Below, in pieces: positions 4,124 through 27,323 of a stretch of 27,323 bases of DNA. The stretch spans positions 1 to 27,323 of IMG/VR virus record IMGVR_UViG_3300030329_000843; one strand, written 5' to 3'. The notes under the pieces were generated by a model. That model was given only the letters and a program-made list of their open reading frames with translations, was not told where the DNA came from and did no database searches. How positions within the stretch are numbered: the stretch's first letter is position 1; every line of letters starts with the position of its first letter. The position numbers and the translations under genes are program-made. This DNA is from a virus.

Positions 4124-5203
4124 CTAGACTCCTGACCAGTCAACGATTGTAGCCGTCTTTGTAGTCCCCGCAGCACCACTTGTGAACGCTGTGGGCACGT
4201 TGACGCTACAGGCGGCATCCCAGTTGGCTTTGGGGTAGGGGGTAATTGTTGTGTTACCTCCAGTTCCTCCAGTTCCTTGAGTCAAAAGTACCGTGTTACC
4301 TGAGGGGTTTGAAGCCACAATATCCAACTCAGATTGAGCGTTGATCTTTGCAATTAGATCTGCACGGGTTCCCGCAGCACCTCCACCGGCTCCCGCAATT
4401 CCGTTCAGGAGAACTACAGTTGCTCCGTCTATAAAGGCTGAGGGGACATTGACACTGGTACATGTGTTCCAATGTGTCGCATTATTCAACGTGATTGTGG
4501 TATTACCGGCGGTTCCCACTGTTCCCTGCTTCAACACAACCTTGCCTGTTGAGGGGTTAGTTGCAACGATATCCAAGGTTGATTGAGCATTGATCTTTGC
4601 GACAAGGTCTGCGGCAGTTCCGGTTGCACCTCCGCCAGCTGCGGCAATTCCATTAACTGCGATATTTGGAGAAGCTACGCCGTTATTCTCATTATCAATC
4701 TCAAATGTAACCGAGGTTCCGTCACTATCTACCAGATTGATTGTAGAACCTTCATTTGGTTTGTCTGAGAAAGTGAAGGTTGCGTTTGCAGTCATCGCTC
4801 CGTTATTCTCATTATCAATCTCAAAGATGACCGTAGTTCCATCGCTGTCAATCAAAGTCAGCCTTGCTTCTTCGTTGGGCTTATCGGTAAGCGTGAAGGT
4901 TGCTGTGGCAACTGCACCCGGACCTGTCAACTTGATCATAAAGTCCCCAGCATCTCCTGCCCCCGTCCCATCGCTCATCCACATAACTGCTTTTAGATCT
5001 GCGGGATTTGACGGGTCAGCTGACTGAGCTTTCCAGCTCACAGTGTTTAGCTCAGTTGCATAAGCCGCTGGAATCGCCCCTTCTGCTGTTAAAGACAGTA
5101 CTTTTCCAGAGTTTGAACTGCTAGTGACTAAGGCTGTCGGGTCAGCTTTTTCTGATGTCTTAACCAACCCGGTAGAGGTTCGTGAATTTAGTTTGGTTAC
5201 CAT
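4124..5203 (-). CDS. Repeat-rich virion-like protein
   Basis: This 359-residue Gly/Ala/Thr/Asn-rich protein has no membrane segment or signal peptide. After a unique N-terminal region (1-100), two copies of a 40-residue unit follow (about 101-135 and 141-175: T-F-T-x-[ST]-D-K-P-N-E, D-S-D-G-T, FEIDNENNG), then two copies of an 83-residue-period unit (about 184-260 and 267-343: NGIAxAGGG, ADL[VI]AKINAQS, LDIVA[TS]NPS, GNTTIT). One short unit plus one long unit resembles a segment of the tail tubular B protein in this genome. A beta-rich structural role, such as fibre-associated or decoration protein, is likely by position after the tail fibre. ACGGAGC precedes the ATG. T7 has no equivalent gene. 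Confidence 0.8.
   Translation of the reverse strand: MVTKLNSRTSTGLVKTSEKADPTALVTSSSNSGKVLSLTAEGAIPAAYATELNTVSWKAQSADPSNPADLKAVMWMSDGTGAGDAGDFMIKLTGPGAVATATFTLTDKPNEEARLTLIDSDGTTVIFEIDNENNGAMTANATFTFSDKPNEGSTINLVDSDGTSVTFEIDNENNGVASPNIAVNGIAAAGGGATGTAADLVAKINAQSTLDIVATNPSTGKVVLKQGTVGTAGNTTITLNNATHWNTCTSVNVPSAFIDGATVVLLNGIAGAGGGAAGTRADLIAKINAQSELDIVASNPSGNTVLLTQGTGGTGGNTTITPYPKANWDAACSVNVPTAFTSGAAGTTKTATIVDWSGV
4175..4654 (-). repeat. Two long repeat units in the repeat protein gene
   Basis: These encode residues about 184-260 and 267-343 of the repeat protein, with an 83-residue period. The copies are clearly homologous in protein (ADLVAKINAQS against ADLIAKINAQS) but diverged in DNA, so the duplication is not recent. 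Confidence 0.8.
4679..4903 (-). repeat. Two short repeat units with 120-bp period
   Basis: These encode residues about 101-135 and 141-175. A 26-bp stretch (4680-4705 and 4800-4825) is identical in both copies, covering FEIDNENNG codons, while the rest has diverged. Either the duplication is recent or the stretch is homogenised by recombination. Confidence 0.85.
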
Positions 5204-11636: not shown

Positions 11637-14330
11637 CTAAGGTTGAGGGGTCAAGTCGCCGGGTTTGCGGTTCACGTTCGGGTACTGCTGTAAAATGGTA
11701 TTGGCCCGCTGGGGTTCTCCCATCCGCAACAATTCCTCAACAGCTGCATCTCTTGCGATCCTCGGATCAACCATGCCTTCTTTCCACACAGGCCTACCGT
11801 ATTTGTCCGATCCCAGAGGTTTTGGCCTACTGTCAAAATCATATTTAAACGTCTGCCACTCACCGAGCGAGAGGGGCCTTGGGGTTAGTTGAACTCCCCC
11901 GCCGCCCTCATACATTAGATAAGCATTCCACAGCTTCCCCCCGGCGGCTGGTTTAAATACCACCTCACCTAGCTCAGGTTGGAGACGGTAAGTAAGCCAT
12001 CTATTTTCTTCTTCAGTAAGACCTTCAGGACGATACCCAGATATCAATGCGTGACTAAGAGAGCTGGCATATTTCTCTCCAAACACATGTTGTAACTGTG
12101 GGACCAGAGCCTCAGCACTTGCGTAACCCACATCTTCAATTTTGAACATTGTTCCGCCGACAAACTTAGTGCGGTCTTCAATAATCGTAATTGCTGCTGC
12201 AACGATGTGCGTATCCTTTAGACTACCTCCACTTGCACCAGACAAACCCAGTCCATACATCATCCTCGAAAGCTGAAGTATCTCACCCATCCTCGGCCTT
12301 AGGTGAGGCTTTACTGCCATCTGCTCGCCCGCCACTTTTATCATAGGCGCGGTCCAGTCGCTTAGATGATTTCTATTTTCAGGAACAGATAGAAAGTCTT
12401 TAAACCGTGCAACAGCTTCATATGCACTTCCGGGGTCCATTGTCCCTAGTTTTCCAGTTCTCAGGGCATCATAACAACTCATGATGTTATTAACGCTGAG
12501 GTTATTCCCCATGCTTCCCCAGAGTTTATCGTTAAGAGAGGGGTTGATTTGATTTAAAGCTCTCCAATGCAGGTAAGACTCCTCAAATCTTTCAACAGAG
12601 GGGAGTTCAGAGTCTTTCTTAGGGTCATCGGATGCAGAGTACTTTAGTCTTTCCCCATCTAGTACCTCTTTACTTAGTCCTCGTGCAGCCGCAACAACGT
12701 CTTTAGCTACAACATCGCCTTCATATCCATATTGAGAAACAGCTCTAGCCCACGCTTTAGTAGGATCAACTCCCATAGTCACTTGAAAGTTTCTGTAGTT
12801 TCTAGTAGCGTCGTATTGAAACCTTTCATAAGCCTCTTTTACTTTGATTTCTTCAACCACAATGCCGGTATGGCGAGGGTCTAAAGACCTAAACACCATT
12901 ACCTCTTCTGAATGCATTTTGCTTGGGTCAAACTCAACAGGCACTCCAGTTTGTTCGCTGACCATCCTTGCAAGTTCTACACCAAACTGGTGGATTTGAG
13001 GGACACCAGATTCGTCTACAGCTTCAAACAACTTCTCATAAGTAAACAACTCACCAGCGTTCATAGCCTTAACTGAAAACCCTTGGATACTACTATCTAA
13101 CCCCGTTCTAATGACATCCACTTGCGCACCAAACAACTGTAGGGCAGTAAGAGCGTTCTGGTCTTTTGTGTTCCGGTCTAGTTGTGGTTGTTTTTCAGAT
13201 CTATAAGCAACAATAGCATCCCGGTTTGCAATGTTTAATTCAGACCCTTCAGGTCCCACTTTAAGACGGTCCAGAACGCTTAAAGCCAGCCCTGTGTATT
13301 TTGGGTGCTTTACTGCGATGTCAATAAGAGCTTTCCCAATCTCATCGTGCATCGTCTTGTAACTGTGGAGTTTCCCCCAGCGTTCTTGAATGGTCGCTCC
13401 CACAGAACCTAGAACGTGCTGGATAACACGCTCTTGAGTCTCCTCAGGAGTTTCTTTTCTCATTCCTTGGACCGACTGCTCCTCACCGTTAGAAGGATTC
13501 TTCCAGACTTGGAACTCTCCAGTAGGCACGTTATGAAGAGGCTCCATAGCCCCTTCAGCTTGGATGAAGTCAGTAATAAGGCCAGCTCTAATTCCATCGG
13601 TGAATTGCTTCTTAGAATTACCCTGCATCCAAGAGCTGTGGCGGGTGCCAAATTCAAACGATCTTTTAGCCCAGACTTTGCCCATTTCCTGTTGGAAAGA
13701 GACTTCATCCCCGCCCACGGGAACATCCATGTACTCAGACCACATCTTGTGCAGGGAAGACATGAAGCCGTCCATATTGTGGTTCGACTCATCTAACAGC
13801 ATCATCTCCATTTCGCTGTTGACTCTTGTAGTAAAGTCGCTGTCTCTACGGCCCGCCTCGTATGTCATGTACGCTCTGGTCTGGTTCGGAGACAGAGTCT
13901 CAGGGATCATCCCCTTTTCCACCATCTCCGCCCAAGACATGTTGGCAATTGCGAGGTCTGCGACCATCTTCTCGCGTTCTTCAACCTGCCAAGGAAGGAC
14001 TCCCCGATCCGCTTTCGCAAAGGTGTCCATTGCCTGAACGCCGAGGTTGGCAACCCCCATTGCAGTTTGAGACAGCCCAGAAAACGCGCTTGCCATCCTG
14101 TTGGCGTCTAGTTCAGCCGCTTGGGCCGCTCTAATGGCGTTATTGGTCTGAGTCTGGAGAATCTGCATGTCTCCCGTAGGAGGAATAGGAGCAACTGGAT
14201 ACGCTTCCATTGCAGGTCTGCCTTGATTGCCCGGAACAACGGTAGTGTTGACGGGAGTGTAAGGATTCTCCCGAGAAGCACGGGTTCCCCCCGCTACTTC
14301 GTTTGGCGGTCGTTGTGGTCTTTTAGCCAT
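11637..14330 (-). CDS. Internal virion / ejection protein (T7 gp15-like)
   Basis: This 897-residue hydrophilic, mostly helical protein lies between the gp14-like and gp16-like genes, the place of T7 gp15 (747 residues). In T7 gp15 is a core protein ejected into the periplasm to join the DNA channel. The first 60 residues are Pro-rich. A helix-forming region with AIRAAQAAELDANRMASAFS follows, and the rest carries many aromatic and charged helices without a recognised catalytic motif. The N-terminus, MAKRPQRPPNEV, closely resembles that of the protein encoded at 23887-24414. The gene begins four bases after the previous stop. Confidence 0.87.
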   Translation of the reverse strand: MAKRPQRPPNEVAGGTRASRENPYTPVNTTVVPGNQGRPAMEAYPVAPIPPTGDMQILQTQTNNAIRAAQAAELDANRMASAFSGLSQTAMGVANLGVQAMDTFAKADRGVLPWQVEEREKMVADLAIANMSWAEMVEKGMIPETLSPNQTRAYMTYEAGRRDSDFTTRVNSEMEMMLLDESNHNMDGFMSSLHKMWSEYMDVPVGGDEVSFQQEMGKVWAKRSFEFGTRHSSWMQGNSKKQFTDGIRAGLITDFIQAEGAMEPLHNVPTGEFQVWKNPSNGEEQSVQGMRKETPEETQERVIQHVLGSVGATIQERWGKLHSYKTMHDEIGKALIDIAVKHPKYTGLALSVLDRLKVGPEGSELNIANRDAIVAYRSEKQPQLDRNTKDQNALTALQLFGAQVDVIRTGLDSSIQGFSVKAMNAGELFTYEKLFEAVDESGVPQIHQFGVELARMVSEQTGVPVEFDPSKMHSEEVMVFRSLDPRHTGIVVEEIKVKEAYERFQYDATRNYRNFQVTMGVDPTKAWARAVSQYGYEGDVVAKDVVAAARGLSKEVLDGERLKYSASDDPKKDSELPSVERFEESYLHWRALNQINPSLNDKLWGSMGNNLSVNNIMSCYDALRTGKLGTMDPGSAYEAVARFKDFLSVPENRNHLSDWTAPMIKVAGEQMAVKPHLRPRMGEILQLSRMMYGLGLSGASGGSLKDTHIVAAAITIIEDRTKFVGGTMFKIEDVGYASAEALVPQLQHVFGEKYASSLSHALISGYRPEGLTEEENRWLTYRLQPELGEVVFKPAAGGKLWNAYLMYEGGGGVQLTPRPLSLGEWQTFKYDFDSRPKPLGSDKYGRPVWKEGMVDPRIARDAAVEELLRMGEPQRANTILQQYPNVNRKPGDLTPQP

Positions 14331-14333
14331 TGT

Positions 14334-15155
14334 TTATTGTCCCGGTATATACCACCAAGGTGGGGTGGGTGTAGTAGGTGTTGTATTGAAGAGGCCAGCT
14401 TGATAAGCCTCCAACCCGATTCCTCCAAGAGCCGTCAGTCCTCCAGCAACCGCTGAACCCATTTGAAGATAATAAGGAGCCATACTTGGAGCGTTCGGCA
14501 TCGCTACCTCAGACAGCACATATGGCACTGGTTCAGGAAGCTGAATAGGAGCCAACGGTGTCGGATAGGCTTGATTGATCATGTTCTGCATCTGTGCTTG
14601 GATGCCCTTCATTCTACGCTCGCCTTGGAGAGTCGCACTCTTAAGGTTGGCGTATTCGATCTCTGCAACTCTTGCTGACTTCAAATGGTGTGACTGCTGT
14701 GCCAGTCGGACAGAGTTACCTACAGTTCCTGTTTCTGCTGCTGAGGCAGCGACAAACGAAGCGTTACTGGCTGCTTCTCGATCTGCATTTGCCAGAGTGT
14801 CCATAGCCTGCATATACCTAGTATCCATCTGCTGATGAACCGCAGCGAACTGGTCTTGAGCATCTTCCTGTGCCGACCCCACCAAAGCAGCAAACTGTTC
14901 GTTCTGCCACTGCTCCATCTGCGACCGATACGCAACATCTTGAGCGTATACGGTTGCTCTGTGGATTCCCAAAGAGTCGTAGTATGCCTGTTGTAGCTCT
15001 AACTGACGTCGTTCTTGCTCCGCTCGGGCTACTTGACTTTCGTATTGAGCTTGAGCGGCATCTGCCTGCGCTCCCGCACTGGCTACGCCCATGCCAATAG
15101 AAGCACCAGTTCCAACAATACTTGCAGCAAGTCCTGCTGCGGCAATACTACACAT
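14334..15155 (-). CDS. Internal virion protein (T7 gp14-like)
   Basis: This 273-residue protein (T7 gp14 about 196) has a hydrophobic Ala/Gly-rich N-terminal segment (about 5-28, GLAASIVGTGASIGMGVASAG minus ends). A long Gln/Ala/Glu-rich coiled-coil region follows (about 30-190), and the tail is Pro-rich and ends in PPWWYIPGQ. This layout is typical of gp14 homologues, which are ejected and inserted into the outer membrane in T7. GGAGGT lies a few bases before the ATG, inside the end of the upstream gp13-like gene, which overlaps by eight bases. Confidence 0.88.
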   Translation of the reverse strand: MCSIAAAGLAASIVGTGASIGMGVASAGAQADAAQAQYESQVARAEQERRQLELQQAYYDSLGIHRATVYAQDVAYRSQMEQWQNEQFAALVGSAQEDAQDQFAAVHQQMDTRYMQAMDTLANADREAASNASFVAASAAETGTVGNSVRLAQQSHHLKSARVAEIEYANLKSATLQGERRMKGIQAQMQNMINQAYPTPLAPIQLPEPVPYVLSEVAMPNAPSMAPYYLQMGSAVAGGLTALGGIGLEAYQAGLFNTTPTTPTPPWWYIPGQ

Positions 15156-24607: not shown

Positions 24608-24945
24608 CCCTTGTAGTCACCCTTTTCTGAATCCGAATATGAATACAATAAAATGCAGTAGTTAATCAGGTCAAGAATAGTGTCTTTAAGAGCCTCATCC
24701 TTAGTCTTGAATGACCCGTTGTGGACAAAGGTAATCAGACGAGACAGCTTGTCCGTCATCCGAACCATGAACCCGGTCTTGGTATCCGTAATCCCCAGCC
24801 TCTCGACTCTTGTGAAGTTCAGGAAAGGGTCACTAGAGTCCTTTCCTCCGCTGTAGTCGTGGTTCTTAGCCTCCATCAAAGCCCTAGCTTCTTGGCAGAG
24901 CTTCCCGTGCATTGCAAGCAAATCTTCTCTATTCATGGATTCCAC
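24604..24945 (-). CDS. DUF1599 / nucleotide-modification-associated domain protein
   Basis: The 113-residue protein matches the DUF1599 pattern as I recall it: a leading helix with LCQEARALMEAKNHDY, then PFLNFTRVERLGI, GFMVRMTDKLSRL and DTILDLINYCILL. The family is all-helical, related in style to MazG-type and dUTPase-like folds, and is called nucleotide modification associated domain 1. A role in nucleotide metabolism or base modification is proposed for it but not shown here. The GTG start at 24945 has GAGGT at ideal spacing. An ATG at 24936 overlaps the exonuclease stop (ATGA) and is the alternative, giving 110 residues. Confidence 0.75.
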   Translation of the reverse strand: MESMNREDLLAMHGKLCQEARALMEAKNHDYSGGKDSSDPFLNFTRVERLGITDTKTGFMVRMTDKLSRLITFVHNGSFKTKDEALKDTILDLINYCILLYSYSDSEKGDYKG

Positions 24946-25673
24946 AGGTTTACCTCTTTTGTATCTGTGTTGTACTCGCCGTATCTAAGAATTCTAGCTA
25001 CTCTGGCTTGCACAAGAGCTTCTTCAGGGGAGAGTCCAGCCCCCTCGAAAGCCTCTAAGACCGCACCCCAGCAGGGGTAATCAAGGACTCTGGCCGCCCT
25101 TCTAGGACCGATACCGGGACATCCGCTATAACCATCTACGGGATCACCCGTAAGCGTTTGAAATAAGTGGTTGTAATCAGCTTGATCTTGACTGACTTCG
25201 CACACTCCTTCATAAGGCTTGCGAGGGTTATAGTGGAGTCCCGGTATTGTTTTCAAATCTTTGTCGATTGTGACAATTACTCGCTCCCCTTCGATTTTCG
25301 CAATACCCGGTTCGCCAGCCAGCAACCCCAGAACGTCATCCGCTTCCAAATTGTGGAACTGAAATGTGCGATACGTTTCATTTGAATACTCCTTAAGAGC
25401 CTTAAATGCCATCGGTTTCCGATGCTTCTTTCGGTGGAGCTTGTAGCTAGGAAGTACTTCCTTCCTCCAGTTCTCGCTGCCAGACATGGCAATGATTACT
25501 TTAGATGCTCCTACTTCTTCTTTAACCCGGTCGATCCAACAGTCATATTTCTGTTTGGCTTCTTTTAAGTCACAGTGATATGTCCAAATATCATCCCCCC
25601 AATCTGTAGCTCGCTCACACCCAGTACAGATCTCGTATAGAACAATATCTCCGTCAATCAGAATCGTTGTCAT
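24933..25673 (-). CDS. 5'-3' exonuclease (T7 gp6-like)
   Basis: This 246-residue FEN/PIN-type nuclease is close to T7 gp6 (300). Metal-binding acids are visible in LIDGD (5-9), LEADDVLG (109-116), TIDKDL (135-140) and the TGDPVDGY segment (175-182). GCPGIGPRRAARVL (184-197) forms the helix-3-turn-helix DNA-binding element. WRKEVLPSYKLHRK (69-82) resembles the helical gateway. In T7 the enzyme degrades host DNA, removes RNA primers and supports recombination and concatemer processing. Its start overlaps the upstream small gene by 20 bases, and a G-run lies about eight bases before the ATG. Confidence 0.95.
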   Translation of the reverse strand: MTTILIDGDIVLYEICTGCERATDWGDDIWTYHCDLKEAKQKYDCWIDRVKEEVGASKVIIAMSGSENWRKEVLPSYKLHRKKHRKPMAFKALKEYSNETYRTFQFHNLEADDVLGLLAGEPGIAKIEGERVIVTIDKDLKTIPGLHYNPRKPYEGVCEVSQDQADYNHLFQTLTGDPVDGYSGCPGIGPRRAARVLDYPCWGAVLEAFEGAGLSPEEALVQARVARILRYGEYNTDTKEVNLWNP

Positions 25674-25872
25674 CAGGAGTCCCCCCCGCTTGCACAGCTA
25701 TTCGGCCAAGCTCAATAAGTCCTACGCAGGAGTGATATGAGCCAGTAAAACACACTGTTATATCTTCAGTTTCTTCTGTCCTCTTCGCACAGCCCAAGAA
25801 AACCATCTCATCAAATCGAGATTGAAGTTCTTTAATCATCTCATCAGATTGAACGTATGTCAAATCAGTCAT
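25654..25872 (-). CDS. Small acidic conserved phage protein
   Basis: This 72-residue acidic protein has DEMIKELQSRFDEMVFLG in the N-terminal half and CFTGSYHSCVGLIELGR in the second half. The arrangement looks like a small family of uncharacterised phage proteins; this is recall, not a search. The ATG is preceded by AAGAGGA located in the last codons of the homing-endonuclease-like gene, and the end overlaps the exonuclease start by 20 bases. Its place between polymerase and exonuclease suggests a replication accessory role, but nothing shows this directly. Confidence 0.72.
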   Translation of the reverse strand: MTDLTYVQSDEMIKELQSRFDEMVFLGCAKRTEETEDITVCFTGSYHSCVGLIELGRIAVQAGGTPDDNDSD

Positions 25873-25874
25873 AT

Positions 25875-26330
25875 CTATTTCCTCTTAAGGCGGGTAAGAC
25901 GTTGTTTCAGTGACTCTCTCATCGCGGAGTTCGGCGGGTATCTTACCAGAGCAGTCAAGACTTTTGCTTGGGGCTGCTTCTCAGTCAGATATGGGAGCAG
26001 GATCCGACACAGCTTTACCGCGTTGGACCCGTATATCGCCCACCTAAACACAACGTTTCCTGAGTTTGTTTTCCTCTTTAAGACAGAACAGGCCCCTCCA
26101 CATATGTCATAGAGAGCTTGGGCAGTCTCCTTGGCGGTAGTATCTACCCCAATGGTGGGAGAGCTGTTCCACCTGAAGCACCCCTCCCCATCCAAGATCC
26201 CAGCTACATAAGCTAGATCAGTGGGTTTCTGCCCAGTTTCTTCCGATTTTATAGTCTCCGTCGAGGGGGCATCGGAACTTGAGTTCCTCACCGGCCTCAC
26301 ACATTGATTGTACTGCAAGCCTTCCGACAT
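25875..26330 (-). CDS. LAGLIDADG homing endonuclease-like protein
   Basis: The 151-residue frame carries a single LAGLIDADG-type helix, LAYVAGILDGEGCF (39-52), whose D47 and G48-E49 positions fit the catalytic motif. A beta-rich part follows (SPTIGVDTTAKET, VVFRWAIYG), then a C-terminal LCRILLPYLTEKQPQAKVL typical of the family. One motif suggests a homodimer. Residues 1-38 are encoded inside the 3' end of the DNA polymerase in another frame, and the domain begins right at the polymerase stop. The start is uncertain: the ATG at 26330 has no well-placed ribosome binding site, and a GTG at 26291 follows GAGG. It could also be expressed by frameshift from the polymerase. Confidence 0.8.
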   Translation of the reverse strand: MSEGLQYNQCVRPVRNSSSDAPSTETIKSEETGQKPTDLAYVAGILDGEGCFRWNSSPTIGVDTTAKETAQALYDICGGACSVLKRKTNSGNVVFRWAIYGSNAVKLCRILLPYLTEKQPQAKVLTALVRYPPNSAMRESLKQRLTRLKRK

Positions 26331-27323
26331 CTTCCGCTATCTCCGTGCGTACTTGAAGTTGGATTTCATCATGAATATGAGCTACTTGTAGAACATCCTT
26401 GTCCCATCCGTGAGACTTGAGTTTCCTGTGAAGGATACAAGTAGCTAATTTCATTGCAATAGCACCTGCCGATTGTAGCAGGGTATTTAAAGCCGAATGC
26501 TGTGACCTGATACGCAGGTGTCGGCCATCAATAGCTCTAAGGTAATCACGGCTCTGAAGAGACAGCTTAATGCCGCTCTGTAGCCTCTCGATAGCTGGCA
26601 TCTTCTTAAGGAACTTGCGTCTCATACGAGACCCTTCGACCCGTCCTCCATCAACAATGGATCCGAGCTTTGCGTCCCCAGCCCCATAAAGGAAAGCATA
26701 TATAAACGTCTTAGCATCGTTACGATCCTCAAGCCCCGCCGCCATCCTGTTGGCTTCGTGGATGTCGCCTTCAAGAATCTCTTTGACGTATTTGCCTCCG
26801 TCAAACTTGTAAGTGTAGTGGGCCAAACACCTAAGCTCTAGTCCTTTCATATCTACACCAACAAGAACGTGTTCAGGAGGAGCAACAAATAGCTCCCTAC
26901 ACTCGGTTCCCCACAAAGCTCCCACCCGTGGAACCTGAGCAATGTTTGGACTGCTGTGGGTGCAGCGGGAGGTGACCGCTCCGCAGGGGTTGACCCTTCC
27001 GTGGATCCGGCCAGCTTGTTCCACCCTCAGCCACGCTTCCCGTCCGTCAGCAAGCTGCCCCAGCCTTTTGATAATTGTCAAATATCTAACTAGCACCTTA
27101 GCTTCAGGATATTCGAGTTGGCTAAGGACAGACTCATCAACCTTAGGTCTTCCCTCTCCTGTGAACTCTTCTGGTTGCCATCCATACTTCTTGATCAAGT
27201 TGTTGGCAATTTGGACGCGGGATGAGGGGTTGAAAGGAGTCTCTTTGTACTTGGGCTTACCCCTGAGAAGTCTAGATCTAATTGCAACAGGAGCGTCTCC
27301 CTTCAATATGTACTTAACATCAT
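26218..27323 (-). CDS. DNA polymerase, T7 gp5-like, C-terminal part
   Basis: The frame is open to the window edge, so the 5' part (3'-5' exonuclease domain and thumb) is missing. About 367 of the roughly 700 residues expected are present. Family A motifs are all intact. Motif A is VDMKGLELR (catalytic Asp near 26853). Motif B is RNDAKTFIYAFLYGAG, with Tyr at the E. coli 762 position. Motif C is HIHDEIQ (near 26373). ALNTLLQSAGA also matches T7. The protein ends in RNWAETH, keeping the terminal His found in T7 gp5. It replicates the phage genome. The last 113 bases overlap the LAGLIDADG frame. Confidence 0.97.
   Translation of the reverse strand, partial: DVKYILKGDAPVAIRSRLLRGKPKYKETPFNPSSRVQIANNLIKKYGWQPEEFTGEGRPKVDESVLSQLEYPEAKVLVRYLTIIKRLGQLADGREAWLRVEQAGRIHGRVNPCGAVTSRCTHSSPNIAQVPRVGALWGTECRELFVAPPEHVLVGVDMKGLELRCLAHYTYKFDGGKYVKEILEGDIHEANRMAAGLEDRNDAKTFIYAFLYGAGDAKLGSIVDGGRVEGSRMRRKFLKKMPAIERLQSGIKLSLQSRDYLRAIDGRHLRIRSQHSALNTLLQSAGAIAMKLATCILHRKLKSHGWDKDVLQVAHIHDEIQLQVRTEIAEDVGRLAVQSMCEAGEELKFRCPLDGDYKIGRNWAETH

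Follow-up and report, generated by a model that had tools for sequence, protein, structure and literature searches.

I-MsoI, I-CreI and I-CvuI, which are homodimeric LAGLIDADG homing endonucleases, are encoded by organellar group I intron genes. The free-standing homing genes of phage T4 often overlap the ORF that precedes them (by 20 bp for segC, 11 bp for segF, 23 bp for mobA and 24 bp for mobC), mobE overlaps its upstream gene by UAAUGA, and these overlaps are thought to limit expression through coupling or scanning (PMC2988022). Homing genes cluster beside DNA polymerase and other essential genes (PMC10448857). In actinobacteriophage methylases hidden HNH insertions lie out of frame, with their translation an open question, and lone LAGLIDADG insertions look vertically inherited (PMC11855218). 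A slot behind a polymerase with shared internal starts was not found to be described in the literature searched, subscription journals lying mostly outside the search.

The locus described here is in a 27.3-kb fragment of an uncultured T7-like virus (the window, i.e. the whole stretch of DNA that was analysed), in which the capsid, tail, internal virion and terminase genes are all on the minus strand (Table 1). The polymerase gene runs off the window edge, where its ORF is still open, and its C terminus is complete, as in related phages, ending in ...DGDYKIGRNWAETH (GRNWAETH) followed by TGA at 26218-26220. At the junction the polymerase frame reads ...GAA ACC CAC TGA and that of a LAGLIDADG endonuclease ...AAA CCC ACT GAT CTA GCT TAT. 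The first 37 residues of the endonuclease are polymerase codons read out of frame; its folded domain (T-D-LAYVAGILDGEG) lies in the +1 frame relative to the polymerase and begins at the polymerase stop codon. The proposal of a first-pass annotation of the window that a LAGLIDADG domain begins, with its frame shifted, exactly at the stop of an intact T7-like polymerase is borne out, as is its reading that the downstream gene has its ribosome binding site inside the last codons of the endonuclease: AGAGGA lies there, 7 nt before the ATG of the 72-aa gene (CTT AAG AGG AAA TAG ATATG).

Table 1. Position of the endonuclease gene, its neighbours and its candidate initiation signals in the window.
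Feature	Coordinates	Strand	Basis or remark
T7-like family A DNA polymerase, C-terminal 367 aa	26218..27321	(-)	Pfam DNA_pol_A 1e-45; PHROG 15971 3e-109
Shine-Dalgarno-like GGAGA, 9 nt upstream of ATG 26330	26340..26344	(-)	
Most likely start codon ATG, -110 from polymerase stop	26328..26330	(-)	inside polymerase codons Glu-Asp-Val
Endonuclease/polymerase overlap, 37-residue leader in polymerase +1 frame	26218..26330	(-)	AlphaFold: mostly disordered
LAGLIDADG endonuclease ORF, 151 aa, ATG 26330 to TAG 25875	25875..26330	(-)	profile and fold matches to I-MsoI/I-CreI
Folded LAGLIDADG domain (TDLAYVAGILDGEG...LKRK)	25878..26222	(-)	AlphaFold pLDDT >95 over most of the domain
72-aa small gene downstream of endonuclease	25654..25872	(-)	homologue directly follows polymerase in L108
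T7 gp6-like 5'-3' exonuclease	24933..25673	(-)	Pfam 5_3_exonuc_N 4e-10; PHROG 107 9e-56

The arrangement is like that of the T4 free-standing homing genes in that a selfish nuclease lies beside an essential gene and has its start in the upstream ORF or at its stop; it differs in the nuclease type (LAGLIDADG rather than GIY-YIG or HNH), in the extent of the overlap (about 29 or about 113 nt rather than 11-24 bp) and in that recurrent start sites are common to unrelated nuclease families. As with the methylase insertions, the endonuclease is out of frame with its host gene, but the latter insertions are within the gene (PMC11855218), whereas the nuclease here comes after the polymerase stop and has its start and an SD-like sequence in the polymerase tail. 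Promoter and terminator scans at the polymerase/endonuclease junction gave results near chance. No similarity was detected between the 72-aa gene and either the T7 gp5.7-like gene of LUZ100 or the CRP-113 small gene, and the large structural-region ORFs at 11637-14330, 14334-15155 and 4124-5203 (minus strand) had no PHROG match at 0.001.

On its own, the window protein matches Pfam LAGLIDADG_3 marginally and below the cut-off (E 0.021, 15.5 bits); that family is matched by 33 of 40 relatives, and the LAGLIDADG similarity holds in a sensitive search, the 40-member family profile finding I-MsoI at 3e-14, I-CvuI at 9e-10 and also I-CreI. The AlphaFold model (pLDDT 86 overall, about 50 over the first 30 leader residues) has I-MsoI, I-CvuI and I-CreI as its best Foldseek matches in the PDB, with E of about 1e-6 and TM of 0.54-0.63. 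The motif, AYVAGILDGEG, carries the acidic catalytic residue, with Glu49 as motif acid and Lys118 as core Lys, the segment around the latter aligning with I-CreI PFLKLKQKQANL in the profile comparison; D47, E49, K118 and Q121 are invariant in an alignment of the 40 relatives. The single motif and the length of 151 aa imply that the protein would act as a homodimer. With the three organellar enzymes it shares the fold, one motif per chain, the motif acid, the core Lys and a similar length; unlike them, it comes from a free-standing phage gene in which no intron was detected, and its domain is shorter. The gene lies outside any intron or intein and leaves its host polymerase gene intact, and the absence of an Rfam match to the locus at E 1 or below argues against an intron-encoded gene. 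The window gene is an authentic LAGLIDADG gene, free-standing and of the homing type, with a probable nested start, and is one of many in a recurrent slot.

The window protein matches PHROG 5046 (1e-17), which carries the label 'HNH endonuclease'; the label is probably wrong, the window member being clearly LAGLIDADG. Several RefSeq copies of actinobacteriophage LAGLIDADG genes are likewise named HNH.

Comparison with relatives shows that a nuclease slot is widespread behind T7-like polymerases. Searches with the polymerase, together with a pattern search for its NWAETH end, yielded 280 usable polymerase ends, 187 of them non-redundant, and a LAGLIDADG homologue is present at the same junction in 47 of the 187 (35 in the +1 frame, 11 in +2 and one in frame 0); in the pattern-sampled loci, which are less biased towards the window, the count is 7 of 93. 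Other cargos among the 187 loci, as assigned by single linkage and a longest-frame rule, are about 25 GIY-YIG/HNH, 16 PD-(D/E)XK-cluster and 8 winged-helix-like genes, with L120, L149, L156, L163 and L185, which are visibly in the wrong frame, kept and tallied as 'other' cargo; family support comes from T5orf172 (Pfam 9e-13), HNH (PHROGs) and PDDEXK_5-like (1e-5, just below the cut-off) matches. One locus, L108, is a precise empty site, in which a homologue of the 72-aa gene (homology judged by eye) directly follows the polymerase, and the endonuclease gene is absent from the cultured relatives LUZ100 and CRP-113 (polymerase 57% identical). LAGLIDADG homologues do occur in cultured actinobacteriophages, Caulobacter phages and others, none of them, among the matches listed, behind a T7-like polymerase. 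The expectation that LAGLIDADG enzymes would be uncommon in T7-like phages fails at this site in this group, where they are not rare; many uncultured relatives have the nuclease slot, and the gene is a recurrent and co-inherited occupant of it rather than an isolated or unusual insertion. The family provides a set of small, single-motif phage LAGLIDADG enzymes suitable for assay.

GIY-YIG/T5orf172 and HNH genes, which likewise have no start at the junction, occur in the same place and the same +1 frame (L131, L135, L138, L144, L148, L155, L163; L006, L060, L143, L159, L162, L173, L208, L246, L260). Matches of endonuclease residues 5-41 in L005-L008 were discarded, being merely polymerase read out of frame; L006-L008 hold an HNH gene there. 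In a sister polymerase clade a PDDEXK_5-like gene (PD-(D/E)XK endonuclease family) replaces the LAGLIDADG gene, mostly with its own ATG at +16 (L044, L045, L047-L049, L051, L053-L057, L063-L065, L079). A speculative idea is that LAGLIDADG and PD-(D/E)XK genes would alternate as replacements for a Holliday-junction resolvase. A protein of 60-70 aa that we call winged-helix-like, a name given by eye, belongs to PHROG 1334 (unknown function) and lies immediately behind the polymerase in the +1 frame (L120-L127, L130, L132, L139, L149, L150, L273); since it is not a nuclease, the slot is not restricted to homing genes.

In the window's clade the endonuclease and the polymerase are inherited together, and purifying selection on the endonuclease is strong. 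The window's endonuclease clade (support 99) comprises 14 rows, the same ones that carry LAGLIDADG in a polymerase clade of 16 rows (support 96), the +1 LAGLIDADG label requires 6 changes on the polymerase tree compared with 28 in shuffles, and endonuclease and polymerase distances are correlated (Mantel rho 0.57, p 0.001); endonuclease dN/dS is 0.03-0.17 for pairs in which dS is not saturated. The co-inheritance rules out a sporadic recent insertion and, together with the low dN/dS, indicates that the gene is old and active-looking in the window's lineage, while the slot overall turns over.

We consider it likely that the gene encodes a free-standing homodimeric LAGLIDADG homing endonuclease that occupies a nuclease slot and is translated from a start inside the polymerase gene. 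The enzyme would be of the single-motif I-CreI/I-MsoI kind, its gene placed after that of the DNA polymerase and before a small gene conserved in T7-like phages, and its translation would begin out of frame within the polymerase gene, in the window most likely at the ATG listed in Table 1, such that polymerase +1-frame codons would form the disordered leader and the polymerase itself would be left intact. The endonuclease is predicted to cut DNA and may home by cleaving, in phages that lack the gene, either the 3' region of the polymerase or the junction; initiation would be internal in vivo, with the yield perhaps held low by a weak internal start. Such an arrangement suggests how a selfish nuclease that lands exactly at the end of an essential gene may be expressed without harming that gene. 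The long co-inheritance with the polymerase, the low dN/dS and the stable synteny would also fit a gene kept for another function, i.e. a domesticated LAGLIDADG protein serving phage replication, recombination or regulation and having lost homing, but this appears unlikely, given that the catalytic residues are invariant and that the unrelated nuclease families in the slot, the empty site and the cultured relatives without the gene are a better fit to selfish elements than to an essential function.

With respect to expression, we analysed the 62 loci in which the stop is followed by a long +1 frame and no ATG lies within 40 nt of that stop. The +1 frame is open beyond -60 nt in 49 of these, compared with 29 of 88 controls (Fisher p 2.5e-8, this and the following start and open-frame p-values being optimistic in that related loci are treated as independent), and the excess holds in each GC bin; frameshifting at the stop would leave the upstream frame free to close, so that its openness argues against this route. 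Where the frame is closed within -80 nt (14 loci, in roughly eight or nine lineages), 13 have a TTG at -26 or a GTG at -29 (controls 15 of 62; p 2.7e-6); for most of these, polymerase Asp-Gly-Glu encodes a GG-rich, SD-like sequence 5-10 nt upstream. The 14th has an ATG at -41. An ATG with an SD sequence at -110, -113 or -119 is present in 16 of 48 long-frame loci and in 3 of 88 controls (p 3.5e-6), with AGGAGG at 6 nt from the long-frame ATG in L052, L069, L091 and L259. Candidate starts recur at two places before the stop, TTG or GTG at 26-29 nt and ATG at 110-119 nt, a pattern which supports internal initiation.

The ATG at -110 is conserved in L002, L004, L011-L014 and L030, and an ATG at -113 is found in L016, L018 and L021. 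Over the last 37 polymerase codons the ratio of synonymous change is 0.61 (95% CI 0.46-0.74) in the long-frame group and 0.82 (0.61-1.04) in controls, intervals that overlap and make the comparison supportive only; in the window's clade the reduction is stark, with 1 and 3 synonymous changes in the last 36 codons compared with 30 and 40 upstream (1 compared with 30 between the window and L002). Against an internal start, the window is without a TTG at -26 and has a less than ideal SD spacing (9-10 nt), and L015, in the window's clade, lacks the ATG at -110, so that a different start, e.g. the ATG at +4, would be needed there. In independent agreement with an internal start, the curators of the cultured Rhizobium phage Pasto annotated a T5orf172-like gene as beginning at -29, within the polymerase gene, and assigned it an RBS.

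Re-initiation by coupling, at the polymerase stop or shortly beyond it and with no upstream start, would yield the domain alone. This is an ordinary arrangement, as in T4 mobE (PMC2988022), and some relatives have suitable signals, i.e. an ATG at +4 in L011 and L015 and one that overlaps the stop (TAATGA or TGATGA) in L042, L058 and L066; however, the window has no in-frame ATG, GTG or TTG between the stop and the motif, the first being a TTG inside the motif at +25, and re-initiation leaves the upstream openness and start enrichment unexplained, making it an improbable route. Least probable is a programmed +1 ribosomal frameshift at the polymerase end giving a polymerase-endonuclease fusion, which would fit the predominance of the +1 frame (35 of 47 LAGLIDADG loci, the domain often beginning at the stop codon and no start being present at the junction) and the frequency of TGA in LAGLIDADG +1 loci (26 of 28, compared with 37 of 88 controls), but the Asp/Glu that the domain requires accounts for the TGA excess, the final polymerase codons do not differ between loci that have a +1 ORF and loci that lack one, related genes in the +2 frame have ordinary starts, and a frameshift needs neither a long upstream open frame, nor enriched starts with SD sequences, nor reduced synonymous change far upstream. 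The first-pass annotation had suggested looking for a frameshift signal near the polymerase stop; no conserved slippery sequence or stop context was found there, the stop and preceding codons varying with no difference in kind from controls and all three stops being used (18 TGA, 12 TAA and 4 TAG in non-LAGLIDADG loci), and on this variable context together with the start statistics we reject frameshifting as the main route. From the three routes that it had left side by side, internal initiation emerges as the best fit across the 62 relatives, coupling at the stop codon is used by other members, e.g. the +2-frame loci L058 and L066, and the frameshift fusion is unlikely.

More tentatively, the polymerase 3' end may be a reusable landing pad, with conserved codons providing an SD-like sequence and a +1 start to unrelated nucleases that join at the stop. 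The polymerase Asp-Gly-Glu-Tyr-x-Ile/Val-Gly codons would supply both elements in the +1 frame, so that LAGLIDADG, GIY-YIG and HNH genes could be expressed at once without a start of their own. Pasto gp032 and a T5orf172 gene of Mesorhizobium phage Lo5R7ANS are like the window gene in occupying the same slot and the same +1 frame, and differ from it in being of the GIY-YIG type. Gene finders can miss such genes, as in the case of Lo5R7ANS, where the T5orf172 gene behind the polymerase (L293:1370-1867) is annotated in its C-terminal part only (Lo5R7ANS_35).
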